A stretch of DNA of 64,000 nucleotides from Ruania rhizosphaerae (GTDB lineage Bacteria; Actinomycetota; Actinomycetes; Actinomycetales; Beutenbergiaceae). The stretch lies in contig NZ_VSMB01000013.1 of NCBI RefSeq assembly GCF_009805705.1, positions 1 to 64,000 of the forward strand, in the 5' to 3' direction. The notes below the pieces were generated by a model, which saw only the letters and a list, made by a program, of their open reading frames with translations, ran no database searches and was not told the origin of the DNA. Made by a program: the position numbers and the translations under genes. Positions 22,800 through 40,063 of this stretch are shown piece after piece; the first letter of the stretch is position 1, and every line of letters starts with the position of its first letter.

Positions 22800-22813
22800 A
22801 AACAACGTTGTTT
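22800..22813. promoter_or_regulatory. LacI-type operator 1
   Basis: The perfect 14-base palindrome AAACAACGTTGTTT lies in the leader of the beta-helix gene, 44 bases before its start and just downstream of its predicted promoter. The central CG pair is typical of LacI/GalR operators. It matches the four other sites at 28406, 31571, 31627 and 40050. Confidence 0.85.
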
Positions 22814-22821
22814 GCTCGATA

Positions 22822-22851
22822 AAAATACCAGAGGGATCAACTCAACGTCAA
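22822..22851 (-). promoter_or_regulatory. predicted promoter of the beta-helix gene
   Basis: Read on the minus strand: -35 TTGACG (22851-22846), an 18-base spacer and -10 TATTTT (22827-22822). The operator at 22813-22800 would cover the transcription start, so repression by a LacI-type protein is expected. Confidence 0.55.
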
Positions 22852-22902
22852 GATGGATAGTTTCCAGGATCCGAGAAGAATCGGTCCATCGAGTGGTCGC
22901 GC

Positions 22903-23910
22903 TCAGGTCGAACGCCGTCGGTCACGGGCGTATTCGTCTTTGAAGCGCCGGTTCAGCCAGTTCACCTGGCGTTCCCAGTGAGTGGAACCACCCCCTTCAT
23001 GACCGTTGTATGGATAGACCTCGATCTCCTTGTCCGCGCTCTTCAATTGGTGGTAGGCGGCGAACACCGTCGAGGGCAGCGAGATGTCGTCCATCAGGGC
23101 GACTGACATCAAGGCTGGTGCTTCTACGGAAGCGGCGAAGGTGACCCCGTCGAGATAGGAGAGCGTGTGCAGGGCGGTGGCCGTGGAGTTGCGGTGGACT
23201 GAGAGGTACTGCCTGAATTCTCCGGCCGCATCGGCGGAGGCCAATTCCAGGTAGCGCTCAAAGTGGCACAAGAACGGAACGTCGGGCAGGACGGCGCGGA
23301 CGAGGCTCGACAGTCCGGCCACCGCGAGGCTCACGCCACCACCCTGGCTCATTCCTGTGACGGCGATTCGCGTCGAGTCGACGATGTCCAGCTGCGCGGC
23401 GGCCTCGACCAGGAGGATGGCGTCGGTGTACAGCCGCCGATAATAGCTCGTCATGGGGTCAGTGATCCCCCGGGTGAGGAAGCCGGGCGCTGCGGGACCA
23501 CTCCCGTGAGGGTCAGGCGTTGCACCGGGACCGGCATTCGGCCATGCGCTGCCCTGTCCTCTGGTGTCCATGACGAGATGGGCGAATCCGCTGGCCGCCC
23601 AACCCAGCCGGTCAGCGGCCACTCCGCGGCCGCCGCCGTAGCCGATGAACTCGACTACCGCAGGGAATGGGCCCGGCCCGCTCGGATGCAGCAGCCACGC
23701 CTTGATCGGGTCGCCGCCGAAGCCAGAGAAGGTGACGTCCCACGCCTCCAGCTCGGTGAGGGGGGTAGGTGCTCGGGAGAGGACCATTCCGCGGGTCAGG
23801 GCCCGAGACTCTTGAAGCGTTGAGGCCCAGAACGAGTCGAAGTCCGCGGGTCGGTCCACCTGGGGCCGGTAGGACCAGAGTTCATCGATCGGCAGATCGG
23901 TCAGCGGCAT
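22903..23910 (-). CDS. acetyl xylan esterase / cephalosporin-C deacetylase-like (CE7)
   Basis: A 335-residue alpha/beta hydrolase with no signal peptide. It shows the CE7 (AXE1) landmarks: DLPIDELWSYRPQVDRPADFDSFW at the N-terminus, RGQGS around the oxyanion region, the nucleophile elbow GMSQGG (Ser188), the catalytic Asp region ALMDDISLPSTVFAAY and the catalytic His in YNGHEGG. The family removes acetyl groups from acetylated sugars. It begins 12 bases after the GH38-like gene and is the last gene of the minus-strand operon. Deacetylation of imported mannose-containing oligosaccharides is a plausible role. Confidence 0.88.
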   Translation of the reverse strand: MPLTDLPIDELWSYRPQVDRPADFDSFWASTLQESRALTRGMVLSRAPTPLTELEAWDVTFSGFGGDPIKAWLLHPSGPGPFPAVVEFIGYGGGRGVAADRLGWAASGFAHLVMDTRGQGSAWPNAGPGATPDPHGSGPAAPGFLTRGITDPMTSYYRRLYTDAILLVEAAAQLDIVDSTRIAVTGMSQGGGVSLAVAGLSSLVRAVLPDVPFLCHFERYLELASADAAGEFRQYLSVHRNSTATALHTLSYLDGVTFAASVEAPALMSVALMDDISLPSTVFAAYHQLKSADKEIEVYPYNGHEGGGSTHWERQVNWLNRRFKDEYARDRRRST

Positions 23911-23922
23911 GATCGCGGGAGA

Positions 23923-26283
23923 CTATCCGTTGACGCGGAACGTCTCTGGACCCTCCGCGAGAGCGCAGGCTCGGTCAAGCGCGTCGGCGGCGGACATCTC
24001 GCCCCATGTGAGATGGAATCGGAACTCGTGAAAGCCACTGACGTCGGCTCGGAAGTTGGTCTCCCAGGCCGTGTTAACGGCCCACGCGGCAACATCTCGC
24101 TGGTTTGCCTGCTGGTCCGGACCGGAATGCAGGCTGACCGTCCGGTGCTCGATTCCACCGAGCGCGAGCAGCGGCGTATCCGGTGTGGCGACCGCGACGG
24201 CGAAACCGTCAGCCTCCTGGACGAAGCCTCGCTGGAGCAACAGATAGTCCTGCAGCGTGCCGTGGACCTGGTCGATCGCTGGCCGAAGCAGTGTGCCGGT
24301 CTTCTCGACCCAGAGAGTTCCGGCTGCGTTGGGACCGAACGGCAGGGGGAGTAGGAGGTTCTCGGCCTCCCAACTGCCCGTGGCGCGGAACCGGACTGCG
24401 ACGGTCAGCAAGGGCTCGACCATCGAGCACATCAGATCGGCTCGAAAGTGCTGGAACCCGCGCAGATCCAGATGCAGCTCCGCTCGAGTGACGAGCGGGC
24501 CGCGGGACGTCACCCGGGCCGAGGTGACCGTGGCGGTGGTGACGACGTCATCGGCGGCCGACCTATTCCGTCCTGCCGTCACGCGAGGGCTGACGGGGTC
24601 GGCGCCGCGGCGGGCCCGCGAGTGGATCGCGGCGAACGGGGCGGGCCTGGTCCCTCGCAGGATGCTGCGCCCAGTCGAGGGATCGACGGCCTCGACGATC
24701 CCGTGCTCAGGAGCGAGAAGCAGCCGGAGCCGGGCACCTTCCAGGAGATGGTTGTCAACACGTTCGGCGCTGACGTCGGGGATCCTGTCCACACCGGCGA
24801 TCCGTTCGGCCTGCATCGGCTCTTCCCGAACCTCGATGATGACGTCTGCACCCGGAAGCATCACGAGCTCGGCGAGCAATTCGACCCCCCGGGCAACCGG
24901 CCGACTCTGACAGGGCAGGCGCGTCCCATCGTGGAAAGCAACTGGGACTGTACCGGGGCGGGTCAGCAACCAGTCGTCGATGTGTAGCCGCAGGACCGAG
25001 ACCGTGGTCGTCGAGGTGTTCACGGCACGGTAGCGCAACGGTTGACACGTCAGCGTTAGCAACGTCTCGCCGGCTCCAGCGCGCGCACGGGTCAGCGCCC
25101 GGGTCGCCGCCGCATGCGCCTGTGCCGCTACCGAGGTCTTCGCTACGTCCTGCGCGATCACCTCGGTCAGCCACGGCATCAGCACCGAATGGGAGTGCCC
25201 CCACGTGTGCTCGGCGTAGATCGCGATCTGTTGTCGCGCGTCGTCGACGTCGGCGGAGATGTCCGCGCCTGTGACGGCGGCCAGGGTCTGGGATCGTTCG
25301 AGGCGGCGCTGCGCGTCGCGAGCCACCCGGAGCTCGCGGGGTGTCGAGGCGACGCCGTCCGCCCACCAGTCGGTCCAGTCGCCGCGCTCGGTGGGGACCT
25401 CGCCGAAGGCCGGCTCCTCCCGGAGCGCGTCGAAGAACTCATCGGCGGTGGACAGGCGCACCCGAACGCCGTCCGGATGACGTTCGTTCCAGTCCCGGAC
25501 AGCGTCGGCGAGTGCAACATCCGGAGGAGCGTTGTCGGAGGCAGCACCCGAGATCAGCGCCGGAACCACGGAATACGGGTAGTCGCGTTCGGCGAGTTCG
25601 TCGAGGTAGTCCGCCACGCGATCCTGGCGCATCTGTGCCGATGCGGATGCGCCGTGTCCGTCGTAGGCATCTCTGATCGTGTAGCTCATCGCCCCGCGGG
25701 GGCAGAAGCCGAGATCGTTGCCGAGCTGGTAATGCGGTGAGACCCAGGCGAGCACCCGGCCACCCGTCGGTCCCTCCCACCAGAACGCGCGCTGGTCGCG
25801 GCCCTCCGGCGCCAGCCCGTGGTGGGTGTGAATGCTCGAGAACAGGTGCTCCACGCCGTGCCGGGCCAGGATGTCGGCGTAGCCCCAGGAGTAGCCGTTG
25901 ATGTCAGCCGTGAGTGCGGTGCGCAGCGGTTGAGCGTGATCGGCGAACCAGTCGGTGGCACGAGCCGTGACCGAGTCCAGCGTGACGGCGTCGATCACCT
26001 CCGTCAGGTTGAGGTAACTGGCCGACCCGCCGACCTGACCCGATCGGATCAGGTCAGCCAACTCGTCTGCCTCCCCGGGCAGGGCAGTCGCCAGGAACTG
26101 TTCCAGCTGCCAGAAGTTCTCCAGCTGCCAGCGATAGGCCGGCGTCGACCGGCACGCCCGGACCACCTCGCGCAGAAAGTCCGCGTGAGCACGGGCTACC
26201 TCGGCACGAGGGGACGTGTAGCCCAGGTCCGTGTGCGAATGCGGGATCAGGTGGACAGTGAGCGGGCGTGCGGTCGAACGCAT
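23923..26283 (-). CDS. GH38-like alpha-mannosidase
   Basis: About 786 residues. The N-terminal zinc motif HSHTDLGYTSP (His15, His17, Asp19) and the likely nucleophile region TADINGYSWGYAD (Asp127) are those of GH38-type retaining alpha-mannosidases. SSIHTHHG and a C-terminal beta-sandwich region (with ELHLDLRGFQHFRADLMCSMVEP) follow. Plain GH38 members usually show a Trp after HxHxD, so this is a divergent branch. There is no signal peptide, which implies a cytoplasmic enzyme. The ATG at 26283 is chosen because the motif-bearing protein begins there; the frame upstream is a shadow of the neighbour. It lies 20 bases after the oxidoreductase gene, same operon. Confidence 0.85.
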   Translation of the reverse strand: MRSTARPLTVHLIPHSHTDLGYTSPRAEVARAHADFLREVVRACRSTPAYRWQLENFWQLEQFLATALPGEADELADLIRSGQVGGSASYLNLTEVIDAVTLDSVTARATDWFADHAQPLRTALTADINGYSWGYADILARHGVEHLFSSIHTHHGLAPEGRDQRAFWWEGPTGGRVLAWVSPHYQLGNDLGFCPRGAMSYTIRDAYDGHGASASAQMRQDRVADYLDELAERDYPYSVVPALISGAASDNAPPDVALADAVRDWNERHPDGVRVRLSTADEFFDALREEPAFGEVPTERGDWTDWWADGVASTPRELRVARDAQRRLERSQTLAAVTGADISADVDDARQQIAIYAEHTWGHSHSVLMPWLTEVIAQDVAKTSVAAQAHAAATRALTRARAGAGETLLTLTCQPLRYRAVNTSTTTVSVLRLHIDDWLLTRPGTVPVAFHDGTRLPCQSRPVARGVELLAELVMLPGADVIIEVREEPMQAERIAGVDRIPDVSAERVDNHLLEGARLRLLLAPEHGIVEAVDPSTGRSILRGTRPAPFAAIHSRARRGADPVSPRVTAGRNRSAADDVVTTATVTSARVTSRGPLVTRAELHLDLRGFQHFRADLMCSMVEPLLTVAVRFRATGSWEAENLLLPLPFGPNAAGTLWVEKTGTLLRPAIDQVHGTLQDYLLLQRGFVQEADGFAVAVATPDTPLLALGGIEHRTVSLHSGPDQQANQRDVAAWAVNTAWETNFRADVSGFHEFRFHLTWGEMSAADALDRACALAEGPETFRVNG

Positions 26284-26303
26284 AGTCGAGGGCCTCTCGA
26301 ACG

Positions 26304-27473
26304 TCAGGCGATAGCGGGCTCTGCTTCGAGTGCGACGGCCCGGCCCTCCTGGTGGGATTCCAGTGCGGCGGCCGCCAACCGATGGGTCGTGGCCGCTTCC
26401 TGGGGACCGGCGGTCGCGAATCGTGCCCCCAGGTCTCCTGCACGTTCGGCGAGGAAACACGCCCACATCTGCAGGATCGCATCGGAGAACCCGAACTCGA
26501 AGATTCCGCCCGTGACGGTCGGCCAGGCCGACTGGCTCCCGGCATCGATCTGCTGCCAGGACTGCTCGCTGCCACCACCGGTGAGAGGGATCTTTGCGAA
26601 GATCTCGACCCGCTTGGGGTTCTTGGTGCTGAACCGTACGCCACCGTCCATACCGACCACCTCGAGGAGCCAGGTGTTCTTCTCGCCCGGATCGATCCGC
26701 TTGGTTTCCACAGTCATCGGGAAGGAGTACTCGCCAGAGTCGACGCGGCAGTGCAGCACGGCGTTGTCCCAGGTGTCGCAGGGCACCAGGGTGCCATCCG
26801 GCCCGGGGCGTTCGGTGACGATGTTCTCCAGGTCGGCGTGGACCGTGCGCGGCGTCCAGCCGAGCCGGAGCGGCACGTGCCAGGCGTGCAGCCCGAGGTC
26901 GTTCATGACCCCCGCCGCACCGCACGTGGCGACTTGGCGCTTCCAGTTGATGGCCTTGGTCACGTCCAGGTCGCTGGAGTGCAGGAACGCACTCCGCACT
27001 GAGACGATCCGGCCCAGCTGCCCGGAAGCGATGGTCCGGTACGCGAGCTGTGCGCCAGGGAAGTACGGCATCTCACTGGAGCAGCGCACGAACACCTCGG
27101 GGTGTTCGGCCGCGGCGCGCAGGATTGCTTCGGCCGCCGGCCCGTCGATGCCGAACGGCTTCTCGGCGAGCAGGTCTTTCCCTGCCGCGATGACGTCGGT
27201 GTAGATGCTCTCGTGCAGGTCGTGACGCACAGCCACGTAGACCACGTCGATCTCGTCCGAGGCGAGCATCTCTCGATAGTCGGTGGTGAGTTGCGTGACC
27301 GTGTCGATCTGCCGGAACCACTCCAGGGCCTCAGGTCGGATGTCGCACACTGCCGTCAGGCGAGGGCGCACGGGGTGATCGATGAGGGCGGGCCAGCGCC
27401 CGAGAGCGGCGGCGAGTTCGCGCCCCATCAGTCCGCCGCCAATGATCCCAACCCGCACGTCGCCGGCGCTCAT
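26304..27473 (-). CDS. Gfo/Idh/MocA-family oxidoreductase
   Basis: A 389-residue NAD(P)-dependent sugar dehydrogenase-type protein. The Rossmann motif is GIIGGGLMGRELAAAL, followed by AVCDIRP, VYVAVRHDLHE and the conserved catalytic EKPFG. The second domain contains NDLGLHAWHVPLRLGW. It would oxidise or reduce a sugar or sugar derivative; the substrate is unknown. The ATG overlaps the stop of the aldolase gene by four bases. The operon order aldolase, oxidoreductase, mannosidase, esterase suggests a catabolic side path. Confidence 0.9.
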   Translation of the reverse strand: MSAGDVRVGIIGGGLMGRELAAALGRWPALIDHPVRPRLTAVCDIRPEALEWFRQIDTVTQLTTDYREMLASDEIDVVYVAVRHDLHESIYTDVIAAGKDLLAEKPFGIDGPAAEAILRAAAEHPEVFVRCSSEMPYFPGAQLAYRTIASGQLGRIVSVRSAFLHSSDLDVTKAINWKRQVATCGAAGVMNDLGLHAWHVPLRLGWTPRTVHADLENIVTERPGPDGTLVPCDTWDNAVLHCRVDSGEYSFPMTVETKRIDPGEKNTWLLEVVGMDGGVRFSTKNPKRVEIFAKIPLTGGGSEQSWQQIDAGSQSAWPTVTGGIFEFGFSDAILQMWACFLAERAGDLGARFATAGPQEAATTHRLAAAALESHQEGRAVALEAEPAIA

Positions 27474-28312
27474 CGGGCGTGCTCCGCGAGGATCGCCAGC
27501 GCTTCGTCGACACTGGCATCGGCGTGCACCGTGGCCATCAGTGCCGCCGTGATCCCTGCGGGGGTCCGGTGCTGAATGATGTTGCGCCCGTAGACGATGC
27601 CTCGTGCACCGGCTTGCAGCACGGCTTGGGTCCGCTCCAGCAGGGTTCGGTCATCGACGCGACCGCCGCCGCGCACGAGCACGGGGACTTCACCGGCCAC
27701 CTCGATCACCCGCTCGTACTGGGTGATGTCCTCTGACGGGTCGGCCTTGATCAGGTCGGCACCGAGCTCGACCGCCTGTCGCACGAGCGCGGTGATCCGG
27801 TCGATATCGCCGTCCACCATGTAGCCGCCGGCGGTCGCGTTGTCCTGCATCACCAGTGGTTCGATCATCAGCGGCATACCGAGCCGGGTGGCTTCCTCTC
27901 GCAGCGCCATGATCGACCGGATGTTGGCCTCACGGATCTCTGGGCGGCCGGGCAGCTGCATGAGGTTCACGCACACCGCGACGGCGTCGAGACGGGCAGC
28001 GACCTCAATCGCATTCGGGACGTGATGGCTGAACAGGTGCTCGTCCAGCGGGTTGCCGTACACGTTCGCGACGTCGGTGCGCAGCACCAGCGCCGGCTTG
28101 TCCCGTTTCGGGATGCGCTGCAGCAGTGGGGCCTGCCCCATGGTCAGCTGAACGGCGTCCGGAGCCGCGTCCACCAGAGTCTTCACGGTTGCTGGCATGT
28201 CGGTGATTCCGGCAAGGAATGAGGGTTCGCCGAAGAAGCCGTGGTCTACGGCCACGTCGAGCGCGCGGCCGGAAGTCGGATGAAACAGCCGGTTGAGGCG
28301 ATAGGCAGTCAC
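27470..28312 (-). CDS. class I aldolase (DeoC/LacD/DhnA-like)
   Basis: A 280-residue TIM-barrel protein. Landmarks are ALDVAVDHGFFGEP, PDAVQLTMGQAPLL, the Schiff-base-lysine type strand ELGADLIKADPSED, and the phosphate-binding VPVLVRGGGRVDD and GARGIVYGRNIIQH. The family includes class I fructose-bisphosphate and tagatose-bisphosphate aldolases and AroA'/LsrF-like enzymes. The GTG at 28312 has AAGGA upstream. It is the first gene of the minus-strand operon, with an operator in the shared divergent region. It may cleave the phosphorylated sugar made by the neighbouring kinase/isomerase, but that is inference. Confidence 0.88.
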   Translation of the reverse strand: MTAYRLNRLFHPTSGRALDVAVDHGFFGEPSFLAGITDMPATVKTLVDAAPDAVQLTMGQAPLLQRIPKRDKPALVLRTDVANVYGNPLDEHLFSHHVPNAIEVAARLDAVAVCVNLMQLPGRPEIREANIRSIMALREEATRLGMPLMIEPLVMQDNATAGGYMVDGDIDRITALVRQAVELGADLIKADPSEDITQYERVIEVAGEVPVLVRGGGRVDDRTLLERTQAVLQAGARGIVYGRNIIQHRTPAGITAALMATVHADASVDEALAILAEHAR

Positions 28313-28391
28313 GTGCGGTCCTTGTCCGTCGTCGGGGGATCGCGGCTGAACGCCACGATGTCGATAGGTGCGATATGGCCAGCCGTGTGCC

Positions 28392-28420
28392 AGAGTAGTG
28401 CTGCGAAACAACGTTGTCTA
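28392..28420 (-). promoter_or_regulatory. predicted promoter of the aldolase operon
   Basis: On the minus strand: -35 TAGACA (28420-28415), a 17-base spacer and -10 TACTCT (28397-28392). The -35 and spacer overlap the operator at 28406-28419, so a bound LacI-type repressor would block RNA polymerase. Confidence 0.45.
28406..28419. promoter_or_regulatory. LacI-type operator 2
   Basis: AAACAACGTTGTCT, one mismatch from a perfect palindrome. It lies between the divergent aldolase operon (start 28312) and the kinase-isomerase gene (start 28442), so one site can serve both directions. Confidence 0.8.
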
Positions 28421-28441
28421 CCTGAACAAAGGAACCGCAGC

Positions 28442-30433
28442 ATGCGCAGAGTTGCCGTCGCTGGGCACGTGTGCCTCGACCTCGTCCCCCGGCAGTTGCC
28501 GCATGGCGGGCTGGCGCCTGGATCGCTCGTCGAGGTCGGACCGATCGAGGTCTCACTCGGAGGAAGCGTCGCCAATGCTGCCCGAACGCTGCAACATCTC
28601 GGGCACCCGGTGCGCGCATGTGCCGTGGTCGGCGATGACGACCTCGCCGATGTGCTGCGCAGGCGGATGGTCGGTCCGTTGCTGCAGGCTGATCTCGTTC
28701 AGGTGCCGGCGACGACCTCCTACAGTCTTGTGCTCGAGCCCGGCGGGCAGGACCGGGCTTTCTGGCACCACGTGGGCGCCAACGCCGCGTTCGGCGCAGG
28801 TGCACTGGACCTCTCTGGCATCGATCTGCTGCACCTCGGCTACCCGTCACTACTGCCCGGGCTGGTCGCCGACGATGGTGAGCCGCTGCTTGCGCTGCTG
28901 CGCGACGCCCGGCGGCAGGGCGTGACGACCTCGGTCGACCTTGCCGTCGTGAGTCCGGCGGATCGCGCGAGCGGGCCCGACTGGGAGCGTTTGCTCCCGG
29001 CCCTGGCGGCCGAGTGCGATGTGCTCTCCCCCAGTTTGGCCGACCTGCAGTCGATCCTGCCTGACGGCGAACAGCTGGCCTCGTCCTTTGCGAAGCGGTT
29101 GGTGGAGTGGGGAGCGGGTGTGGTCGCCGTCTCCGACGGCGAGAACGGCCTGACGCTGCGGGCCGGCGATCGTGCGCGCCTGCGCGCGGGTGGCGCCGCC
29201 CTCACGCCGCTGGCCGATACCTGGGCCAGCTCATCGCTGCACCAGCGGGCTGTTCCCCTTGATCGAGTGGTCACCACGAACGGTGCCGGTGACGCTGTGA
29301 GTGCTGCGCTGCTCTACGCACTCTCCGTCGAGCTGGACCCCGCCAGGGCTGCCACGCTGATGGCCGCCGTCGCGGCGGCAGTCGTCTCCGGCCAGGATCC
29401 GGGAGCCGACGCCATCGCTCGGCTGTGCCCGGAGCTGGCGGCGATGGGCGCGATCGAGATCACGGCCAACCAACCGCCGGCCCGGTTCTATCGCGGGGGT
29501 GCACAGATTGCCGGCTTCCGCGGCCAGGAGCACGTGGACGACTACACCCCGGAGGACTGGGTGGCCTCGACCGTGGAGGTCCGTGGTGATGAGCCGACCG
29601 GTCTCACTCGCCTTCTGGACGGGACGGTCCTGCGTGAGGCCATCGCGGCACAGCCGGAACTCTGGCTTGGTGCGGAGCACGTGGCCCGCTTCGGTGCTGA
29701 CACGAAGCTGCTGGTGAAGCTTCTCGACGCCGGGCAGCGTCTGCCGGTCCACGCCCATCCCGACGGCGTGTTCGCCCGCCGCGAGGTGGGCACCGCTCAC
29801 GGCAAGGCTGAGGCCTGGTACATCCTGAGCCCCGGCACAGTGCATCTCGGCCTGCGTGAGCCGGTCGGCCGGGAGGAGATGGCTGACCTCGTCGCGCGCC
29901 AGGACGCCGAGACCATGCTCGGCCTCCTGCACGAGATTGCGGTGCAGCCGGGCGACTGCGTCTATGTTCCTCCCGGCGTGCTGCACGCGATCGGGGAGGG
30001 GATCCTTCTGGTGGAAGTGCAGGAGCCAGAAGATCTGTCCATCCTGCTGGAATGGCGGGACTTCGATCTGGACGGTGCCGTGCACGGCCACCTGGGTCTA
30101 GGTTTCGACCGTGCGTTGGAAGCGGTCGACCTGACGGCAATGACGACCGAACGCCTCGCCGAACTCGTCCTGGCCTCACCAGAAGGTGCATGCCTGCCCG
30201 AGGAAGCCGAGGCCTACTTCCGGCTCGAGGTGATCCCGGTCGCCGGGGTGACGGCCTTGCCCACGGGGTATTGCGTCGTCGTGGGTCTGGAGGGGGACGT
30301 GCAGATCGGCGGAACCGGTGGGGCGCCCACGTCGGTGGCTGGTGGCAGGGCGGCATTGGTGCCGGCGTTCGTGGCAGCGCCCTGGCTGGCCGGTACCGGT
30401 CGCGTGGTCGTGTTGCGTCCACCGGCGCCGTGA
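28442..30433 (+). CDS. PfkB sugar kinase fused to class I mannose-6-phosphate isomerase
   Basis: A single 663-residue frame joins two enzymes. Residues 1 to about 340 are a ribokinase/PfkB-type kinase: AVAGHVCLDLVP, EVSLGGSVANAARTLQHLG and the ATP/catalytic motif TTNGAGDAVSAALL (about 278-290). From about 350 onward it is a cupin-type mannose-6-phosphate isomerase: FYRGGAQIAGFRG, the metal site LPVHAHPDG (about 435-442, where many homologues have Gln in place of the first His), GKAEAWYIL and YVPPGVLHAIGEGILLVEVQEPEDLS. The pair could phosphorylate mannose (or fructose) and convert mannose-6-phosphate to fructose-6-phosphate in one polypeptide. ATG 28442 follows AAAGGAACC; the longer frame is upstream shadow. 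Confidence 0.92.
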   Translation: MRRVAVAGHVCLDLVPRQLPHGGLAPGSLVEVGPIEVSLGGSVANAARTLQHLGHPVRACAVVGDDDLADVLRRRMVGPLLQADLVQVPATTSYSLVLEPGGQDRAFWHHVGANAAFGAGALDLSGIDLLHLGYPSLLPGLVADDGEPLLALLRDARRQGVTTSVDLAVVSPADRASGPDWERLLPALAAECDVLSPSLADLQSILPDGEQLASSFAKRLVEWGAGVVAVSDGENGLTLRAGDRARLRAGGAALTPLADTWASSSLHQRAVPLDRVVTTNGAGDAVSAALLYALSVELDPARAATLMAAVAAAVVSGQDPGADAIARLCPELAAMGAIEITANQPPARFYRGGAQIAGFRGQEHVDDYTPEDWVASTVEVRGDEPTGLTRLLDGTVLREAIAAQPELWLGAEHVARFGADTKLLVKLLDAGQRLPVHAHPDGVFARREVGTAHGKAEAWYILSPGTVHLGLREPVGREEMADLVARQDAETMLGLLHEIAVQPGDCVYVPPGVLHAIGEGILLVEVQEPEDLSILLEWRDFDLDGAVHGHLGLGFDRALEAVDLTAMTTERLAELVLASPEGACLPEEAEAYFRLEVIPVAGVTALPTGYCVVVGLEGDVQIGGTGGAPTSVAGGRAALVPAFVAAPWLAGTGRVVVLRPPAP

Positions 30434-30518
30434 CGGGGCGTGGACGCGCCAGGGAACGGGCGGGTATGAGGCGGCGCTGATTGTAGGGTGTTGCCGACCT
30501 GTACCGAGGAGGCGCCCC

Positions 30519-31517: not shown

Positions 31518-31535
31518 CGTTCGCTAGCCGTTCCC

Positions 31536-31564: not shown

Positions 31565-31570
31565 TTCATG

Positions 31571-31584
31571 AGACAACGTTGTTT
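31571..31584. promoter_or_regulatory. LacI-type operator 3
   Basis: AGACAACGTTGTTT, one change from the perfect palindrome. It overlaps the predicted start of transcription of the importer operon. Confidence 0.82.
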
Positions 31585-31626
31585 CCGTGATGGAACGATA
31601 TTGATGTGAGATGCTTCGAATCACCT

Positions 31627-31640
31627 GGACAACGTTGTTT
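31627..31640. promoter_or_regulatory. LacI-type operator 4
   Basis: GGACAACGTTGTTT, 56 bases centre to centre from operator 3 and 74 bases before the importer start codon. Two sites in one leader could permit looping by a tetramer or simple cooperative binding. Confidence 0.78.
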
Positions 31641-31713
31641 CGCGTATGTAGCCTGACTACCGGCGGTGCCTCTGATCCGAGGACCCCCCCGCCGTTGCAC
31701 AAAGGAGTGAATC

Positions 31714-33177
31714 ATGCATAGCACCGGAATGCGCAGGCGCGTCGGCGCCGTGGCCACTGTCTCGGCCGTTGCGGCCATGTCGCTTGCGGCTTGTTCGCCC
31801 TCCGGCGAGGGCGCGGAGACGGTCGTTCGCATCGCGAACCCGATCACCGACTTCTGGGGTGACCCCCTGCAGGAAGCGGCCGCAGTCTACGAAGAGCAGA
31901 ACGACGGTATCCGGATCGAGATCGACTCGGTCCCATATGACAGTTACGAGGAAGTGCTCCAGACGCAACTGGTTGGTGAGACAGCTGCCGATATCCTGTT
32001 CCTGGAGCCGCCAGCCGTCGCGAATTTCTCCGGCAGGGATTTCCTGCTCGCGCTCGATGACGAGCTCTCGCCCACGACCGAGTGGGGTGAGACCTTTGTC
32101 AGCGGCATGCTCGACGCCACTCGCTCTCCAGACGGCAGGCAGTACGTTGTCCCGTGGTCTTCTGTGGCCGTGCTGATCGCCTACCGCCAGTCAGAGTTCA
32201 GCGCAGTCGGCTCGAACGAGGCGCCGGTCACTTTTTCCGAGTGGATCGATGTGATGAACCGACTCGAAAGCGAACCAGCGCCGCTCAATGTCTCGCTTCG
32301 CGGTGACGATGCCAGTCTGTTCTGGATCCTCACGAACAAACTTGAGGCTACCCTGCGACCTCTCACAGAAGACATCAATCTGTTGCACGCGGATGACTGG
32401 GCCTACGACCCCGATGATCTCGCGTCGACCCTGGGTGAGACATACACGACTGATGAGTTGTACGTCGCGTTCGAGACAGGCCTGATCGATCCGGCTCAGT
32501 CTCCGGGCTACCGGGCAGCAGTGGAGCAGGTAGTGCAGCTCAGCCCCTTCATCAACGAGGACTCGGCCACGGTACAGCCCGCCGATGTGGCTCAACGCTT
32601 CGGTGCTGGGGAGATTCCACAGCTCATCGGCGTCGGCGGGACGATCGCCGAAGTGGGTGCGGAGGCGGCGGACTCAGAAGACATCGCGACGTTCAACTTG
32701 CCGACGATCACGCAGGATGACTTCCCCGGCCTCGCCGCAGGTGGGGAGAATCCGCTGGCGGGTCCGAGGAACGGGTTCGCGGTGAACGCCGCCAGTGAGG
32801 TTCAGGCCGAAGCGCTCGACTTTCTGAGGTTCCTCACGCAGCCGGACACGGTTAGTGACATGTACAGGGTGCAAGTGCAGGGCGATCCGTCGGCAGTTGA
32901 CGGTGTCGCCTACCCGGACGACAGTGTGCTTCAAGAGACCGACGGGCAGGAGTTCGCTCAGATCAGCCCGTACGGCTTCGGTGCGCCCCCGACGTTCGAC
33001 ACTCAGGACACTGACGAGTTCCATGCCCAGTGGCAAAGCCTCCTGACCGGCAACTCCTCGGTTGATGAGTTCCTGGAAGATCGCAGTGCCTCCAACCGTG
33101 CAGCGCTTGAGCGCAATCTGGTCCTGGAGGAGGACTCTATCGACCAGTCGTTCATCGACGAGCAGCTCGGTCAGTGA
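31714..33177 (+). CDS. ABC sugar transporter, substrate-binding lipoprotein
   Basis: A 487-residue solute-binding protein of the family 1 (carbohydrate uptake 1) type with a lipobox MSLAACSPSG (Cys27). It captures the sugar outside the membrane. Typical segments are ITDFWGDPLQEAAAVYEEQN at the start of the mature domain and FAVNAASEVQAEALDFLRFLTQP near the C-terminus. An AAAGGAG lies 6 bases before the ATG. It is the first gene of the operon with two permeases, GH2 and GH92. No ATP-binding subunit is encoded nearby; such importers often share one encoded elsewhere. Confidence 0.93.
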   Translation: MHSTGMRRRVGAVATVSAVAAMSLAACSPSGEGAETVVRIANPITDFWGDPLQEAAAVYEEQNDGIRIEIDSVPYDSYEEVLQTQLVGETAADILFLEPPAVANFSGRDFLLALDDELSPTTEWGETFVSGMLDATRSPDGRQYVVPWSSVAVLIAYRQSEFSAVGSNEAPVTFSEWIDVMNRLESEPAPLNVSLRGDDASLFWILTNKLEATLRPLTEDINLLHADDWAYDPDDLASTLGETYTTDELYVAFETGLIDPAQSPGYRAAVEQVVQLSPFINEDSATVQPADVAQRFGAGEIPQLIGVGGTIAEVGAEAADSEDIATFNLPTITQDDFPGLAAGGENPLAGPRNGFAVNAASEVQAEALDFLRFLTQPDTVSDMYRVQVQGDPSAVDGVAYPDDSVLQETDGQEFAQISPYGFGAPPTFDTQDTDEFHAQWQSLLTGNSSVDEFLEDRSASNRAALERNLVLEEDSIDQSFIDEQLGQ

Positions 33178-34109
33178 CACTTCTCGAACGCCGTCGTCGG
33201 GTGCCGAGGCCTCGGGCTGCCCGACGGCGTCCACACCGGCTGCGGCGTCGGGCGCTGGCGTACCTCATGCTCACTCCGGCGCTCGCCTTCGTGGCGGTCT
33301 TCATCGCGTATCCACTGCTCCGCGGATTCTACAAATCGTTCTTTGACTACAACGGTGGCAACGTCGATCGCTTCGTCGGTATGAAGAACTACATCGAGCT
33401 TTTCAACGACCCTGCGGTGCTACCGTCTTTCGTCAACGTCTTCTGGCTCACCGTGGCCCTGATGCTGAATCAGGTCGGAGTGGCGTTCATCGCTGCGTGG
33501 TTGATCCATCACCTGAGAAGCGCGCGTCTGCAGTACGCCTTTCGGATTGTCGTGATGGTGCCGGCCGTGGTTCCAACGATCGTTGGATTCCTGATCTGGA
33601 GTCAGTTCCTCTCGGTCGACGGCGCGGTGAATCGCATCCTTGGTGCGCTCGGAGCAGAGTGGCTTATCGGAAACTGGCTCGGGGACCCGGACCGGGTGAT
33701 CATCGGGCTGATCCTCGTCGGCCTTCCGTGGCTCAACGGCATCAATTGCCTCCTGTTCCTTGCTGGCTTGGAAAATATCCCTGGCGAGCGGTATGAGGCT
33801 GCGCGGCTGGATCGGGCAAGTCGCTGGCAGATCCTGCGATACATGGAAATTCCCGCAGTGCTTCCCCAGATGATTGTTCTGGGGGTGCTAGCCGTCGTTC
33901 TGAGTCTGCAGAGCTACGAGAACGTATACGTGCTCACCGGCGGTGGTCCGTTCGATTCGTCTAACGTTCCGGGCCTGCTTCTGTTCAAGAATGCCTTCAC
34001 CTACGGTCGGTTCGGATACGCGAACGCTATCGGGGTGCTGCTTGTCGTAGTGATTGCCGTGATTCTGCTCGCGGGGCGGATGCTCGGGCGCGGAGGGGAG
34101 GATCGATGA
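33174..34109 (+). CDS. ABC sugar transporter permease (MalF type)
   Basis: A 311-residue inner-membrane permease with six or so helices. The EAA coupling loop is visible as EAARLDRASRWQILRYMEIP, and ENVYVLTGGGPFDSSN is typical of sugar permeases. The GTG start overlaps the stop of the binding-protein gene (GTGA), indicating coupling. An Arg-rich N-terminal tail precedes the first helix. Confidence 0.95.
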   Translation: MTLLERRRRVPRPRAARRRPHRLRRRALAYLMLTPALAFVAVFIAYPLLRGFYKSFFDYNGGNVDRFVGMKNYIELFNDPAVLPSFVNVFWLTVALMLNQVGVAFIAAWLIHHLRSARLQYAFRIVVMVPAVVPTIVGFLIWSQFLSVDGAVNRILGALGAEWLIGNWLGDPDRVIIGLILVGLPWLNGINCLLFLAGLENIPGERYEAARLDRASRWQILRYMEIPAVLPQMIVLGVLAVVLSLQSYENVYVLTGGGPFDSSNVPGLLLFKNAFTYGRFGYANAIGVLLVVVIAVILLAGRMLGRGGEDR

Positions 34110-34939
34110 CACGGATGGACGGACTCGGAATCGGGCGGCTCCTCCGGTTCATTGCACTGGTGTTGCTCAGCGTGGGGACCCTTTTCCCACTCTACTTCCT
34201 CGTGGTGACGGCACTCAAGACGAACACTGAATTCGCCACAAACTACTTTCTCCCCCCGCTAAAACCGGATTTCTCCAACCTCATAGAGGGGATGGGGCTG
34301 ATGGGGAGATTCGTGATGAACTCCGTTTTCATCTCGCTGATGACCACGCTAATTATCCTGCTTGTGGTCGTACCAGCTGTGTACGCCTTCACCTGGTTGC
34401 GATTTCCGGGTGCGCCGATCCTCTATACGGTGGCCATCGCATCGCTGATGGTGCCGCCAGTTCTCACCTTCATACCGCAGTATATCTTGACCAGGCAGCT
34501 CAATCTTCTCAACACCCACTGGGGGGTTATACTCCCGTTCGTCGCTACCGGGATTGGGCTCTCGGTATACCTCTTGCGCACATTCTTTGCCGCTCTGCCC
34601 TATGAGCTCATCGAGGCGGCGCGGATCGAAGGCGCGGGAGAGATGAGGATCCTCCGCACGATCGTCCTTCCGCTTACAGTGCCCTCGCTCGTCACTGTGT
34701 CTGTCGTGCAGATTGTCACCACATGGAACGCGTTCCTATGGCCGCTGGTGGTCGTCTCTTCGGAGTCCAAACGGGCAGTGTCTGTGGCCGTCACCTTCCT
34801 CTCAGGGAGCAGCCAAGTACCGGACACACCCGCCTTGATGGCCGGATACCTGGCTGCCTCGATACCGCTCATCCTGATCCTGTCTGCGCTGATGCGGTTC
34901 TTCGTGCGCGGTATGACTGAGGGGGCATTGAAGGGATGA
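34106..34939 (+). CDS. ABC sugar transporter permease (MalG type)
   Basis: A 277-residue permease, partner of the preceding one. Six hydrophobic segments and the EAA loop EAARIEGAGEMRILRTIVLP are seen, together with TTWNAFLWPLVVVSSESKR and the ending IPLILILSALMRFFVRGMTEGALKG typical of MalG-type proteins. Its ATG overlaps the previous stop by four bases. Confidence 0.95.
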   Translation: MTRMDGLGIGRLLRFIALVLLSVGTLFPLYFLVVTALKTNTEFATNYFLPPLKPDFSNLIEGMGLMGRFVMNSVFISLMTTLIILLVVVPAVYAFTWLRFPGAPILYTVAIASLMVPPVLTFIPQYILTRQLNLLNTHWGVILPFVATGIGLSVYLLRTFFAALPYELIEAARIEGAGEMRILRTIVLPLTVPSLVTVSVVQIVTTWNAFLWPLVVVSSESKRAVSVAVTFLSGSSQVPDTPALMAGYLAASIPLILILSALMRFFVRGMTEGALKG

Positions 34940-36844
34940 ATGATGGAAGTTGAGATCAAGGAGTGGACACTGGAAGGGTGGCGTCCCTGGGAGTGGCAGA
35001 TGGCAGCGTCAGTCGAGTCTGGTACGACTTTCACCCCGGAGCTTGGACCGTTCCCCGCTGCAGTGCCTGGCGACGTGCGGACAGTGTTGCGGCAACAAGA
35101 AGTTGTTCCGGAACCCTTCCATGGGACGGCGTCGCGCGCCTCGGAGTTCATCGAGCGGCGCCATTGGGTCTACCAGGCTGATCTCGGGTCGTTCGCGCGA
35201 GGGACGGCAGAGCCTGTCGACATCGTGTTCGACGCCATTGACGGACCGTGCCTCGTGCTGTTCGACGGAGCCGTTGTCGCCCGACACGATAACGTGCACC
35301 TTTCGTTCACCATTCGAGTCGAGCTTGATGGAGCCGAGCGTCCGCTGCTCGAGGTTGTCATGCTCGAGCCTCCCACGAATCTAGGACAGGTGTGCCGGAC
35401 CGACGAGATCCTGCCCACCAGGTCTCGCTTCTGCTACGGCTGGGACTGGACACCCCGGATGGTGCAGATTGGGATGCCCGGGCGCGTGACGATCAAACCC
35501 GCACGCGCACCGAGACTGCAGCTCCGGGAGTTGCACACCGGCCTGCGCGGATCGGATGGGGTGCTGACACTCGAGCTGGAGCCCTCAGTTGCCGCGTACC
35601 CGTCTACAGAGGTGTCGGTGGAACTGCGCCATTCCGGATGCACCGTGCACCACTCGAGGCATCAGCTCGTATCGACGATCACGGTGAACGTGCCGGACGC
35701 GCAACCGTGGCACGTCGATGACCCGCAGCTCTATGAGCTCGTTGTCACGTCCTGGATCGGCGAGTCTCCGGTTTCGCTGCACCGTTCTGTCGGCTTCTCA
35801 CACGTGGAGTGGCGGAACGCGCCTGGAGACCCGGAGGGAGCCGAAGGTTGGCTGCTCCACCTCAACGGCGAGCCGTTGCCATTCGTCGGTGTGAACTGGG
35901 TGCCGATCCGGCCCGACTTCGCCTCGGTCCGCGATGAGGAGTACATCGCTCGTCTGACGCTGTACCGGGAACTCGGCTTCACGATGATCAGGGTGTGGGG
36001 CGGGGCCACCAGGGAGCGCGACTTGTTCTACGACCTCTGCGACCGTCTCGGGATCCTCGTGTGGCAGGACCTGCCGCTCAGTTCGTCCGGGATCAACAAC
36101 TCGCCACCGGAGTCGGAGGAGTTCGCGACGCTCCTCGACGAAATCGCTAAGGAATGGCGGCAGCGGCTCATGCATCACCCGTCTCTCGTGGTCTGGTGCG
36201 GCGGGAATGAACTTACTGTCCACGACCATAGCGAAGATCGCCCTGGCCGACCGATCACGGCAGACCACCCGGGAGTAGGCCGGGCTCTGCGAACGCTGGC
36301 TGCCGGCGGCCGTTGGAAGGTGGTGCCGGCTACTCCGTCGGGCCCGCGCTTCGGGTGGACTGAGCAGGAGCGCGGACTAGGGCTGCACCACGACGTACAT
36401 GGTCCTTGGGAGACCGGCGACGATGCCGACGACTGGGCCAGCCTTTGGGCCCTAGACGATGCGCGTCTCCGCTCGGAAGTCGGCGTGGCCGGAGCGAGCC
36501 CGGTCGACCTGTTACAGGAGTTTGACCTGTGGAACAGCGGCACGGCGAACTGGTCGCACTCCTCGAGTTGGTGGCTGACTGGACGCGAGGAGGCTAGCCC
36601 TGAATGGGTCGAGATGAGCCAACTCCGCCAGCAGCACCTGCTGGTTGACGTCGTACACATGCTCCGCCGTCGACAGAAGGAGTGCGGAGGTGTTCTCTTC
36701 TGGCTGGGTCACGACACATTCCCGTGCGCCGTGAGCCTGGCTCTCGTGGACTTCCACGGCCGCCCCAAACCGGCTGCCGTCGGAATCGCACAGGCGCTAC
36801 GGGAGTGGCGTGAGGACATGAGGAGCGTGGCTGAGGTCCAATGA
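34940..36844 (+). CDS. GH2 beta-mannosidase-like enzyme
   Basis: 634 residues with a GH2 layout: N-terminal jelly roll (AVPGDVRTVL, HWVYQADL, FYGWDWTPRMVQIG-like FCYGWDWTPR), immunoglobulin-like domain, and TIM barrel with VNWVPIRPDF, FTMIRVWGGATRERDLFYDLCDRLGILVWQDLPLSS. The acid/base Glu is in WCGGNE (E424) and the nucleophile in RSEVG (E513). The WGG and WQDLP signatures favour beta-mannosidase over other GH2 enzymes. There is no signal peptide, so it is probably cytoplasmic. It starts directly after the permease stop (two ATGs at 34940 and 34943). It is shorter than many beta-mannosidases of 800 or more residues. Confidence 0.88.
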   Translation: MMEVEIKEWTLEGWRPWEWQMAASVESGTTFTPELGPFPAAVPGDVRTVLRQQEVVPEPFHGTASRASEFIERRHWVYQADLGSFARGTAEPVDIVFDAIDGPCLVLFDGAVVARHDNVHLSFTIRVELDGAERPLLEVVMLEPPTNLGQVCRTDEILPTRSRFCYGWDWTPRMVQIGMPGRVTIKPARAPRLQLRELHTGLRGSDGVLTLELEPSVAAYPSTEVSVELRHSGCTVHHSRHQLVSTITVNVPDAQPWHVDDPQLYELVVTSWIGESPVSLHRSVGFSHVEWRNAPGDPEGAEGWLLHLNGEPLPFVGVNWVPIRPDFASVRDEEYIARLTLYRELGFTMIRVWGGATRERDLFYDLCDRLGILVWQDLPLSSSGINNSPPESEEFATLLDEIAKEWRQRLMHHPSLVVWCGGNELTVHDHSEDRPGRPITADHPGVGRALRTLAAGGRWKVVPATPSGPRFGWTEQERGLGLHHDVHGPWETGDDADDWASLWALDDARLRSEVGVAGASPVDLLQEFDLWNSGTANWSHSSSWWLTGREEASPEWVEMSQLRQQHLLVDVVHMLRRRQKECGGVLFWLGHDTFPCAVSLALVDFHGRPKPAAVGIAQALREWREDMRSVAEVQ

Positions 36845-39800
36845 AAGAACAGTCGGGTAGCCATCGCAGAGTCGATGCTGGGCGAGGGATCCGGATCCTG
36901 CAGGTCGACAGCGATCTGGTGGGGCGTTCCGTCGCGGTGGGCGAGGCCTTGGTCTACGACGTGCGCCCACACCGGGGGGACATGACGGACCGCGCCGACG
37001 AGAGTGAGTGGTGGAGTGGCGGGTTCGGAGCGACCGGCGTGTCGGTGGAGCTGGTCTTCCAGGATGAGTCAAGTACCGCGGGAGCGCCCGACCAGTACGG
37101 TGTCCCCACTACCGCGAACTCACAGGGAGCCTCGCGACTCATCCGCTGCGACCAGTGGAACCGACGCTCTGTCGCCCTCGACGACTTCGCGGGAAGGGTC
37201 ATTCGCACCGTCTATATCACGCTCGATGTCCGTGTGGACGCCGCGAGTGTCGATCTCGGTTCTGTGTCGCTACGTCGCCCCGATTCACCGACGGACTGGA
37301 CCCACTTGGCGGATACGACGCGGGGAACGAACTCCACATTCGGCTACTCTCGGGGGAACACGGTCCCGGCGACAGCGGTCCCACACGGGTTTGCCCTGAC
37401 CTTCCCGGTGACCGACCTGCGGCACGGATCGTGGCCCTCGGTCTACGGCGACCCCGCCGAGGATGTTCCGTTTCTGGGTGTGCGGCTCGGCCACACCCCG
37501 AGTCCGTGGATTGGCGACTACGGAGTACTCGACATCCAGCCAACTGTGACCCCCGACAGCGGACCGGACCTATTCGAGCGCCCTCGCCAGCGAGCTCACC
37601 CACACCGATATGAGGTCGTCCTACGCAGCGGCATCGAACTGCGCCTCGCCCCCACTCGCAGTGGCATGGTGTCCGAGATGCGATACCCGCATGAGTACGG
37701 AGCTCTCCATGTGCACGGATCTGGGGGGCATGCGATGTCTGTGCAGCGGCCGGCCGGGCGGACGCTGCTGACCGGATGCTCGATGGGGGCCTCGCCGGTG
37801 CTCGCCGGCGCTCCTCCGGTGTACTGGTCGGTCGTTGTCGACCGGGCAGTGGAGGTCTCGTCTGGGTGTGCCGCGCACGGCACAGACTGCACCGTCATGC
37901 GCTGGACGCGCGGTTCGGGTCCGATCACGGTGAGTGTGGCCACATCGCTCGTTGCCGCGGGCGTCGCGGAGGCAGCATCCGCGCAGCTTGGCGCTGGGGC
38001 TGCGGCCACTGCGCGCGAGGCAGAGCGTCTCTGGGATGAGATCATGTCCCGGTTCCGCCCGTCCGGGGCGACGCAGGATCAACTCGTCTCCTTCTACTCG
38101 TCGCTGTACCGACTCTTCCTCTATCCGAGCAGGATCGGCGATCCTGGGCTCCTCGGTGAGACGTTCGCGGCGCGTGCCGTGGGCGGCCCGGATGGCGTCC
38201 GGTGTACGGGAGCGCTGACGGTCAACAACGGGTTCTGGGATACATACCGCACGGTCTGGCCGGCGCTGGCGCTGTTCGATCCCGCGCGGGCCGCGGGGTT
38301 GCTCGATGGTCTCCTCAACCACTTCCGGATCGCTGGATGGATGCCCCGCTGGACTGCTCCGATGGCGATCGACATCATGGTGGGCACTGGCTCTGATGTC
38401 GTCTTCGCGGATTCGCTCGTCCGCGGGGTCGAACTCGACGAACACACGGCCCTAGCCGCAGGGCTTAAGAACGCTACCGTGCCAAGCGCCGATTCCGCTG
38501 TCGGTCGCCGGGAGTTGGAGAGAGCAATCTTTCTCGGCTTCACGCCGGCCGACGTTCCGGAGAGCGTCTCCTGGACGATTGAGAACGCGATCTCGGACGC
38601 TGCGACCGAGGCAGTCGTCGACAGGCTTCGCACCAGGGGTGAAACCGAGTTCCTCGGCATCGACCTGGCGACGCTCGGACGCTATCTACGTTCGCGTGCT
38701 CGGACGCATGCGAACACCTTCGACTCCGCTTCGGGCTTCTACCGGCCGGTGGTCCGAGGCGGTGGCTTCGCGGAGCCGTTCGATCCGCGGGAATGGGGCG
38801 GTGCCTACACCGAAACCAACGCCTGGGGAACCGCCTTCGCAGCGATGCATGACCCGTGGGCGATGCAGAGCCTGCACGGCGGACCATCCGGCTTGCGCCG
38901 GAAGCTGGACGAGTACTTCGCCTCCCCCGAGTTCCTGGACTGTGCGTACGAGGGAACGTACGGGATGCGTATCCATGAGATGACGGAGGCGTATGACGTG
39001 CGTATGGGCATGTTCGCTCTGTCGAACCAGCCTGCTCACCACATCCCGTTCCTGTATGCGTTCACTGATAGGCCGTGGAAGACTTCGGCGATCACCCGGG
39101 CAGCGCTTCGTCGCCAGTTCACGGGCTCAGATATCGGCCAGGGATATCCGGGTGACGAGGACAACGGTGAGATGAGTGCTTGGTACCTCTTCGCTGCGCT
39201 TGGCTTCTACCCCGTGGCTCCGGGGTCTGCCTGGTACGTCCTGACCGCGCCCCTTCTTGACCGTGTGGAGATCGACCTGCCTGGCGGAATGCTCTCCGTC
39301 GTCTGTGAGAACAACACTTCCGAGAACGACTTCATCCAGGAAGTTCGCTTCGATGGGGTCCGATGGGAGTCGCCGTTCATCGAGCACGAGCGCCTTGCCG
39401 GCGGGGGAGAGCTGCGGTTCGTGCTGGGCCCCACTCCCGTCAATCCTGGGCCAGCCTCGGCGCCGGCCATGGGGCCAACGATTCCGGGTGAGCAGCCCCG
39501 CCCCCTGCGTGATCTCTCCCCGGGCCACGTGCGTGCCATGCACAAGGGATACCGGGTGCTCGAGGACGACTCCTCGGTGACGGAGGCCTCGTTCGCGTCG
39601 GAGCGGACCCTGCACTGGCGTCAGGACCTCCCGCCTGCGCGGGTCGAGATGTACACGCTGACCTGCGGCAACGACCCGAATTGCGCTCCGACGGACTGGA
39701 CGCTGTGGGGATCCGACGATGGCGTCACCTGGGAGGAACTCGATGAGCGTCGCGGCTTCGCCTTCCAATGGCCGCGGCAGACGGTGCCGTTTCCGGTGCG

Positions 39801-39969
39801 GGAAGGTGTTGGCCAGGCGTTCCTGCGGCTGGTGGTCGGCGCCGGAAACCTGGCGCAGATTGAGTTCCTTGGCGACACGACCTGCGCTTGGAAGGAGGCG
39901 CCACACGTGGGGGAGTATTCGGTCGGCGGCTCGCCATGTACTCCAACTGATCTGGGTCGCATGAGGTGA
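36841..39969 (+). CDS. GH92 alpha-mannosidase with C-terminal F5/8-like domain
   Basis: 1042 residues, no signal peptide. GH92 is a calcium-dependent inverting alpha-mannosidase family. Seen are the N-terminal beta-sandwich, NNGFWDTYRTVWPALALFDP, MPRWTAP, YTETNAWGTAF (a conserved Glu, probable acid), SNQPAHHIPFLY, and GYPGDEDNGEMSAWY with the Asp pair believed to act as base. SENDFIQEVRFDG closes the catalytic part. Residues after about 890 look like a discoidin-type carbohydrate-binding domain (WTLWGSDDGVTWEEL). The start overlaps the GH2 stop by four bases (ATGA). The enzyme would trim terminal alpha-1,2 or related mannose from N-glycan or mannan fragments. Confidence 0.93.
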   Translation: MKEQSGSHRRVDAGRGIRILQVDSDLVGRSVAVGEALVYDVRPHRGDMTDRADESEWWSGGFGATGVSVELVFQDESSTAGAPDQYGVPTTANSQGASRLIRCDQWNRRSVALDDFAGRVIRTVYITLDVRVDAASVDLGSVSLRRPDSPTDWTHLADTTRGTNSTFGYSRGNTVPATAVPHGFALTFPVTDLRHGSWPSVYGDPAEDVPFLGVRLGHTPSPWIGDYGVLDIQPTVTPDSGPDLFERPRQRAHPHRYEVVLRSGIELRLAPTRSGMVSEMRYPHEYGALHVHGSGGHAMSVQRPAGRTLLTGCSMGASPVLAGAPPVYWSVVVDRAVEVSSGCAAHGTDCTVMRWTRGSGPITVSVATSLVAAGVAEAASAQLGAGAAATAREAERLWDEIMSRFRPSGATQDQLVSFYSSLYRLFLYPSRIGDPGLLGETFAARAVGGPDGVRCTGALTVNNGFWDTYRTVWPALALFDPARAAGLLDGLLNHFRIAGWMPRWTAPMAIDIMVGTGSDVVFADSLVRGVELDEHTALAAGLKNATVPSADSAVGRRELERAIFLGFTPADVPESVSWTIENAISDAATEAVVDRLRTRGETEFLGIDLATLGRYLRSRARTHANTFDSASGFYRPVVRGGGFAEPFDPREWGGAYTETNAWGTAFAAMHDPWAMQSLHGGPSGLRRKLDEYFASPEFLDCAYEGTYGMRIHEMTEAYDVRMGMFALSNQPAHHIPFLYAFTDRPWKTSAITRAALRRQFTGSDIGQGYPGDEDNGEMSAWYLFAALGFYPVAPGSAWYVLTAPLLDRVEIDLPGGMLSVVCENNTSENDFIQEVRFDGVRWESPFIEHERLAGGGELRFVLGPTPVNPGPASAPAMGPTIPGEQPRPLRDLSPGHVRAMHKGYRVLEDDSSVTEASFASERTLHWRQDLPPARVEMYTLTCGNDPNCAPTDWTLWGSDDGVTWEELDERRGFAFQWPRQTVPFPVREGVGQAFLRLVVGAGNLAQIEFLGDTTCAWKEAPHVGEYSVGGSPCTPTDLGRMR

Positions 39970-40049
39970 ACGTATGGCTTGATGTGTTGGGAGCAGACGA
40001 GGATGAATGCGCCGTAGGACAGTTTCACTTGAGCATCCATTTCTCTATG

Positions 40050-40063
40050 AAACAACGTTATCT
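40050..40063. promoter_or_regulatory. LacI-type operator 5
   Basis: AAACAACGTTATCT, a variant of the same palindrome with two changes on the right arm. It lies about 157 bases before the start of the surface propeller protein and just after a possible weak promoter (TTTCAC, 17-base spacer, TATGAA). Confidence 0.7.

Follow-up and report, generated by a model that had tools for sequence, protein, structure and literature searches.

A stretch of 64,000 nucleotides from Ruania rhizosphaerae (NCBI RefSeq assembly GCF_009805705.1, contig NZ_VSMB01000013.1, positions 1 to 64,000; the window in the following) carries a block of carbohydrate genes at 21.4-42.7 kb with a gene for a LacI-family protein in its midst. 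Judged from the sequence, it is highly probable that this protein (30519-31517) acts as a local repressor, which controls the block through RRACAACGTTGTYY palindromes located at five transcription units. The regulator-operator pair adds a solid new member to a familiar type of gene switch, the local sugar regulon of the LacI family. The same block had been proposed as one regulon in a first-pass annotation of this DNA, and such a reading is supported by the rarity of the sites and by their co-occurrence with relatives of the regulator.

Operator sites in the window and the genome

The whole window was searched with the pattern AAACAACGTTGTTT, allowing up to three mismatches. This revealed five operators, which span 17 kb and are all intergenic (gene starts by reading):

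Operator 1, 22800..22813: AAACAACGTTGTTT, 0 mismatches; precedes the beta-helix gene (minus strand), 44-57 bp upstream of its start at 22756
Operator 2, 28406..28419: AAACAACGTTGTCT, 1 mismatch to AAACAACGTTGTTT; divergent aldolase / kinase-isomerase region, 23-36 bp upstream of the kinase-isomerase start at 28442 and about 94-107 bp upstream of the divergent aldolase start (about 28312)
Operator 3, 31571..31584: AGACAACGTTGTTT, 1 mismatch to AAACAACGTTGTTT; 6 bp behind a TTGTCA-17-TATAAT promoter, 130-143 bp upstream of the binding-protein start at 31714
Operator 4, 31627..31640: GGACAACGTTGTTT, 2 mismatches to AAACAACGTTGTTT; 56 bp downstream of operator 3, 74-87 bp upstream of the same start at 31714
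Operator 5, 40050..40063: AAACAACGTTATCT, 2 mismatches to AAACAACGTTGTTT; weaker, precedes the surface propeller gene, 124-137 bp upstream of 40187 or 157-170 bp upstream of the likelier start at 40220

The first-pass annotation had reported the same palindrome at 22800, 28406, 31571, 31627 and 40050, each time in front of a transcription unit and nowhere else in the window, with a LacI-family gene in the middle of the locus. All five coordinates are correct, every site lies upstream of a gene start, no sixth site with up to three mismatches to AAACAACGTTGTTT is present in the 64 kb, and the LacI-family gene is found at 30519-31517. The palindrome is the same at four of the five operators, which share RRACAACGTTGTYY, while 40050 departs from it by one base (ACAACGTTAT); the 14-mer given in the annotation is exact at one site only. 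The central CG is present in all five operators, the fifth having one imperfect half. In 100 dinucleotide shuffles, searched likewise with up to three mismatches, a mean of 0.30 sites and a maximum of two were obtained.

The genome of the window comprises 4,426,037 bases in 43 contigs. Many equally good sites elsewhere, named in the annotation as evidence against a regulon, were not found in it, since at up to two mismatches to AAACAACGTTGTTT the five operators are the sole places. Exactly three mismatches occur at nine further places, and a reversed control pattern gave four places at up to three mismatches. One of the nine (C16:1387) shows a perfect 10-bp core and was set aside as a sixth operator because of its position inside an open reading frame of 249 amino acids.

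Furthermore, an independent matrix was built from 22 sites of genomes other than that of the window. Here, the five operators take ranks 1-5 in the window (operator 2 first, operator 4 third, operator 1 fourth and operator 5 fifth) with scores of 25.2-29.3, the next position reaching 11.2, a gap which is partly built in because all training sites were picked by the exact core.

Co-occurrence with the regulator

The distribution of the core was compared with that of LacI relatives (E up to 1e-60) across the family (24 genomes) and the order (248 genomes), scoring at most eight LacI candidates per genome in the latter. In the family, exact RRACAACGTTGTYY is found 15 times in six genomes, five of which hold a LacI relative. 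In the sixth (G018), a LacI homologue truncated by the contig end (48% identity over 98 residues) adjoins the site, which was noted afterwards; without counting this homologue, sites are present in 5/5 genomes with a relative versus 1/19 without (p 1.4e-4). In the order, exact RRACAACGTTGTYY is present in 19 of the 248 genomes, that is in seven of the nine with a LacI relative versus 12 of the 239 others (Fisher p 1.6e-7). All 18 exact sites of these seven genomes are located within 15 kb of lacI. The first-pass annotation had assigned the sites to this regulator, and the co-occurrence, close to lacI in other genomes, points to the same binder.

The twelve site-bearing genomes without a close relative have one exact site each, and in eight this is GGACAACGTTGTCC. 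Site surroundings were examined for four of the twelve: G080 possesses a more distant IKTVSR LacI (40% identical), and the stretches taken from G044, G234 and G112 gave no LacI match. In G080, the locus L204 (contig C7, around 174151-177841) contains six exact ACAACGTTGT cores in the 4 kb surrounding the IKTVSR LacI.

A wider set consisted of 80 LacI relatives kept out of at least 520 found in named genomes, their loci adding up to 1,553,135 bases. Exact ACAACGTTGT is present in 90 copies in the loci of 75 relatives; in 66 of the 80, a copy lies between 300 bp upstream of and 30 bp inside the lacI match. Nine control palindromes of equal composition are found 0 times. The recognition helix, which reads VSLKTVSR in the window, was found in 79 loci; 78 of them end in [LIV]KTVSR and one in LKTASR.

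Promoters and proposed mode of control

Promoter overlap is seen at two sites. The promoter in front of operator 3 matches at 11 of 12 positions, and its -10 box begins 12 bp ahead of the operator. On the minus strand, operator 1 follows TTGACG-18-TATTTT, the -10 box of which begins 14 bp and ends 8 bp ahead of it. Operators 1 and 3 would thereby cover the transcription start, which is the usual binding place of a repressor. The sole promoter found at 28406 is weak, lies on the minus strand and overlaps the operator, and 40050 gave a weak promoter match only.

The sister genomes G017, G019 and G020 contain a counterpart of operator 2 as well as a site behind lacI. At the latter, -35 is occupied by TTGTCA and -12 by TACCGT or TAACGT, with the spacing seen at operator 3. 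Behind this site the importer genes of the window gave no match above the cut-off, and no counterpart of operator 4 is present in the stretches examined. At 31571-31640 the window has two operators 56 bp apart, where the three sister genomes have one.

A model can be drawn from this arrangement, in which we infer the binding itself, the dimer, repression as opposed to activation, the inducer, the extent of the operons and the autoregulation through read-through. A LacI dimer would bind the RRACAACGTTGTYY palindromes, placed on or directly beside the promoters of five transcription units. Operator 1 would control the beta-helix gene. One common site would serve the aldolase-dehydrogenase-GH38-esterase unit and the divergent kinase/isomerase-lacI unit, two operators the importer-GH2-GH92 unit, and operator 5 the surface propeller. 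During the breakdown of mannose-containing glycans, an intracellular sugar or sugar phosphate would release LacI, and the block would be expressed together.

Gene content of the block and of related loci

The genes of the block are as follows (GH, glycoside hydrolase family; PF, Pfam accession; codes such as 2qjg, PDB entries):

21410..22756, minus strand: secreted beta-helix protein, pectate-lyase-like (PF12708, PF13229; start 22756 by reading)
22903..23910, minus strand: AXE1-family esterase (PF05448, E 1.5e-97)
23923..26295, minus strand: GH38 alpha-mannosidase-like protein (PF01074, E 2.9e-25; approximate start set from the 790-amino-acid G017 orthologue)
26304..27473, minus strand: Gfo/Idh/MocA oxidoreductase (PF01408; PDB matches to many family members)
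27470..28312, minus strand: DhnA/LsrF-type class I aldolase (PF01791; 2qjg E 8.7e-21, 3gkf E 3.3e-19; start by reading)
28442..30433, plus strand: fusion of PfkB-type kinase and type I mannose-6-phosphate isomerase (PF00294; TIGR00218; 1qwr)
30519..31517, plus strand: regulator of the LacI family with the recognition helix VSLKTVSR, presumed to bind all five operators (PF00356, PF13377)
31714..34939, plus strand: carbohydrate ATP-binding cassette (ABC) importer; binding protein 31714-33177, permeases 33174-34109 and 34106-34939 (PF01547, PF00528)
34940..36844, plus strand: GH2 beta-mannosidase-like protein (5n6u, E 2.2e-37, residues 40-423 of 634)
36841..39969, plus strand: GH92 alpha-mannosidase (PF07971, E 5.9e-106; alpha-1,2-mannosidase match 7nsn, E 1.3e-154)
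40220..42673, plus strand: secreted GH43/GH130-like propeller (PF04616, E 3e-10)

The regulator displays an N-terminal helix-turn-helix (PF00356, E 1.1e-12) and a C-terminal sensor domain resembling periplasmic binding proteins (PF13377, E 7.5e-27). Among the curated NCBIfam LacI models (MalI, RbsR, CytR, CcpA, GalR and others), 18 match and none reaches its cut-off, the best being MalI with 156.3 versus 310 bits. The isomerase half of the fusion scores 38.8 bits with TIGR00218, under the cut-off of 116.2, and matches 1qwr with E 3.7e-13 over residues 407-542; at E 0.001 there was no Pfam report for it. Against the model of beta-1,2-mannobiose phosphorylase the propeller obtains 34.1 bits, far under the cut-off of 450, and its C-terminal part carries a putative LAATG-like sorting signal. 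An identity as levoglucosan or inositol dehydrogenase was set aside for the oxidoreductase, as the model matches fall well short of the cut-off and those in the PDB are spread over the family. Downstream of the propeller, an oxidase of the flavin adenine dinucleotide (FAD)/4Fe-4S type (43028-45916) is present without an operator of its own; in L016, L018, G048 and G174 a homologue is found in the vicinity of the regulon core, and the oxidase may belong to the regulon by read-through.

Among the close relatives, the loci L016, L018, G048 and G174 have aldolase, dehydrogenase, kinase-isomerase and LacI in common with the window, and the site lies between the divergent units. L019-L021 share aldolase, dehydrogenase and LacI together with a kinase alone, without the isomerase fusion, and in L015 and L017 only LacI is common at the cut-off used. 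A GH38 signal in L019-L021 was rejected, because the query began at the upstream open reading frame start and the matches fall in the extension overlapping the dehydrogenase gene. The glycosidases are GH42 in L016 (Pfam) and in L018 (by reading) and GH3 in L019, and G048 and G174 carry a CUT2-like importer by reading. Over the 248 genomes of the order, the binding protein of the window (E up to 1e-60), with at most six candidates scored per genome, and its propeller, with at most three, each matched in one genome, their own. The kinase-isomerase fusion is matched at full length in six of the 248 (at most four candidates scored per genome), which coincide with the six genomes that carry at least two exact operators. 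Its kinase and isomerase halves match separately in other genomes of the order.

In 50 of the 80 relatives of the wider set (including L016 and L018), lacI has a mannose-6-phosphate isomerase match no more than 4 kb away. By raw count, a GH92 homologue, 24-30% identical over the catalytic part, is present within 10 kb in 32 of the 80. Of these 32 loci, 28 also have the isomerase adjoining lacI, and in 31 GH92 lies upstream on the strand opposite to lacI.

Relation to described regulators

Local sugar regulons of the LacI family are well represented in the work of Ravcheev et al. (2014; PMC4052901), the parts of which drawn on here describe even palindromes with a central CG, located mostly 30-140 bp upstream of the start. 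The window resembles these regulons in its even, CG-centred palindrome and in the local control of sugar genes that is proposed for it; its sites are likewise confined to the neighbourhood of the regulator and common to its relatives (in seven of nine genomes, not in all). Unlike most of the local regulators described in those parts, which are autoregulated, lacI of the window has no site of its own. A table of the same source places ManR with mannose and mannosides and gives it the number 5, taken here to mean orthologous groups; no ManR motif is given in these parts. The ManR of Thermotoga maritima (PMC3750489) is, as far as the portion of that paper used here goes, similar in its mannose-responsive control of mannosidases and an importer and belongs in contrast to the ROK family. 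The regulator AraQ from Bifidobacterium (PMC4746261) is also an actinobacterial LacI-type protein with palindromic sites, and it differs by its consensus TGTGAGCGCTCACA, its global role and its other genes, as given in the main text, which contains no word beginning with "mannos".

Among the literature titles listed for the operator sequence, or for LacI together with mannose, mannosidase, isomerase, PfkB, GH92, N-glycan or ManR, none describes the pair; RegPrecise and most subscription journals, which lay outside this search, may record it. The MalR of Bifidobacterium is reportedly a further actinobacterial LacI-type regulator with palindromic sites, acting on other genes than those of the window.

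Weighing of the explanations

Several observations speak against control of the block by the local LacI protein. The pattern AAACAACGTTGTTT was itself derived from the sites of the window, the core is absent from the loci of five of the 80 wider relatives, and two genomes with a LacI relative, G145 and G238, show no exact core in the respective 16 and 15 kb examined. Directly before lacI no operator is present, and its autoregulation would probably occur only through read-through from 28406. There, no match to a plus-strand promoter was found, and as the entire region is conserved in the sister genomes G017, G019 and G020, footprinting does not make the site stand out. Operator 5 at 40050 is weak and equalled by four other places: at 1 mismatch to RRACAACGTTGTYY the genome has nine places, the five operators and these four, and therefore 40050 needs support beyond its sequence. 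Such support comes from the variant ACAACGTTATC, the odd half of which faces the gene, since it recurs likewise oriented before large secreted-protein genes in L016 and L018. The nearness of lacI to the sites also proves little, because the genome has 63 LacI-like matches including the protein at 30519-31517, and one or several of these paralogues could be what binds the sites. A six-frame reading of the 61 stretches holding the other matches revealed KTVSR in a helix setting only in L160 (VSQKTVSR) and L183 (VSVKTVSR), the latter having nearly the same recognition helix. In both, KTVSR is not preceded by L, I or F; however, two VKTVSR relatives carry the core, so that by its helix L183 stays a candidate, and two places with 1 mismatch to RRACAACGTTGTYY lie elsewhere on its contig (C11). 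On this contig and on that of L160 (C40) there is no site with up to two mismatches to AAACAACGTTGTTT, and across genomes the sites track the relatives of the protein at 30519-31517 and lie near its gene, which makes binding by a paralogue improbable. Just beyond the window (G000:C4:64177-65121), another LacI-family gene is located, with 32% identity and the helix VSRSAASR.

Some LacI-family proteins both repress and activate, and by reading the palindrome may sit in the -35/-10 spacer near operator 5 and the sites of L016 and L018. An activator in place of a repressor, or a global regulator to which the palindrome belongs, is nevertheless held to be very improbable: the -10 box begins 14 bp ahead of operator 1 and 12 bp ahead of operator 3, and places with up to two mismatches are missing outside the block. 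A chance or artefactual origin of the five sites has a negligible probability: one perfect 10-bp core does occur inside an open reading frame elsewhere in the genome, but the shuffles, genome scan, order test, matrix and control palindromes are all contrary, and chance is rejected on the shuffles, the genome scan, the independent matrix and the control palindromes. A more serious doubt concerns the sugar, that is only the inducer, and is compatible with the binding model favoured here. The regulon could be real and serve the product of the shared core (kinase, aldolase, dehydrogenase), the glycosidases being interchangeable. This would fit to GH42 in L016 and L018 and GH3 in L019, to the CUT2-like importer read in G048 and G174, to the binding protein and the propeller, each matched in a single genome, and to L015 and L017, which are among the closest relatives and show no kinase or isomerase match. 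On the other side stand the mannosidase families within the window and the isomerase and GH92 homologues near lacI in the wider set, and a sugar other than a mannoside is considered unlikely, if clearly conceivable. The mannoside reading of the first-pass annotation is backed by GH92, the beta-mannosidase-like GH2 and the isomerase and GH92 neighbours in relatives. Since some of the closest relatives carry GH42 or GH3, the inducer may nevertheless be a shared sugar phosphate, and we lean towards a sugar or sugar phosphate that derives from mannose and is shared by the core pathway, rather than a particular mannoside.

The local LacI regulon thus offers a candidate regulator-operator pair for the use of mannose-containing glycans, which can be recognised in many Actinomycetota from the sequence. 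In this way, glycosidases and surface proteins that would otherwise lack a place obtain a probable trigger. A broader proposal is made tentatively, with rather more doubt than confidence. An operator code GACAACGTTGTC, read by [LIV]KTVSR LacI proteins throughout a clade of Actinomycetota, might define a plug-in regulon, in which the regulator and a core pathway (here the PfkB kinase-isomerase fusion) would be fixed, while importers, glycosidases and surface proteins would be swapped between species, each arriving with an operator copy in front of it. The core with its DhnA-type aldolase and dehydrogenase might then represent a pathway for mannose, or for a closely related sugar, that is yet to be described.

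Within one genus, the operators are kept while the genes behind them differ among genomes. In the locus of the same-genus genome G017, three large proteins gave no Pfam match at E 0.001, and a PDB search of one of them gave none; they are located at L136 67-3651, L136 3769-7017 and L137 114-2759, as called from GC at third positions only.

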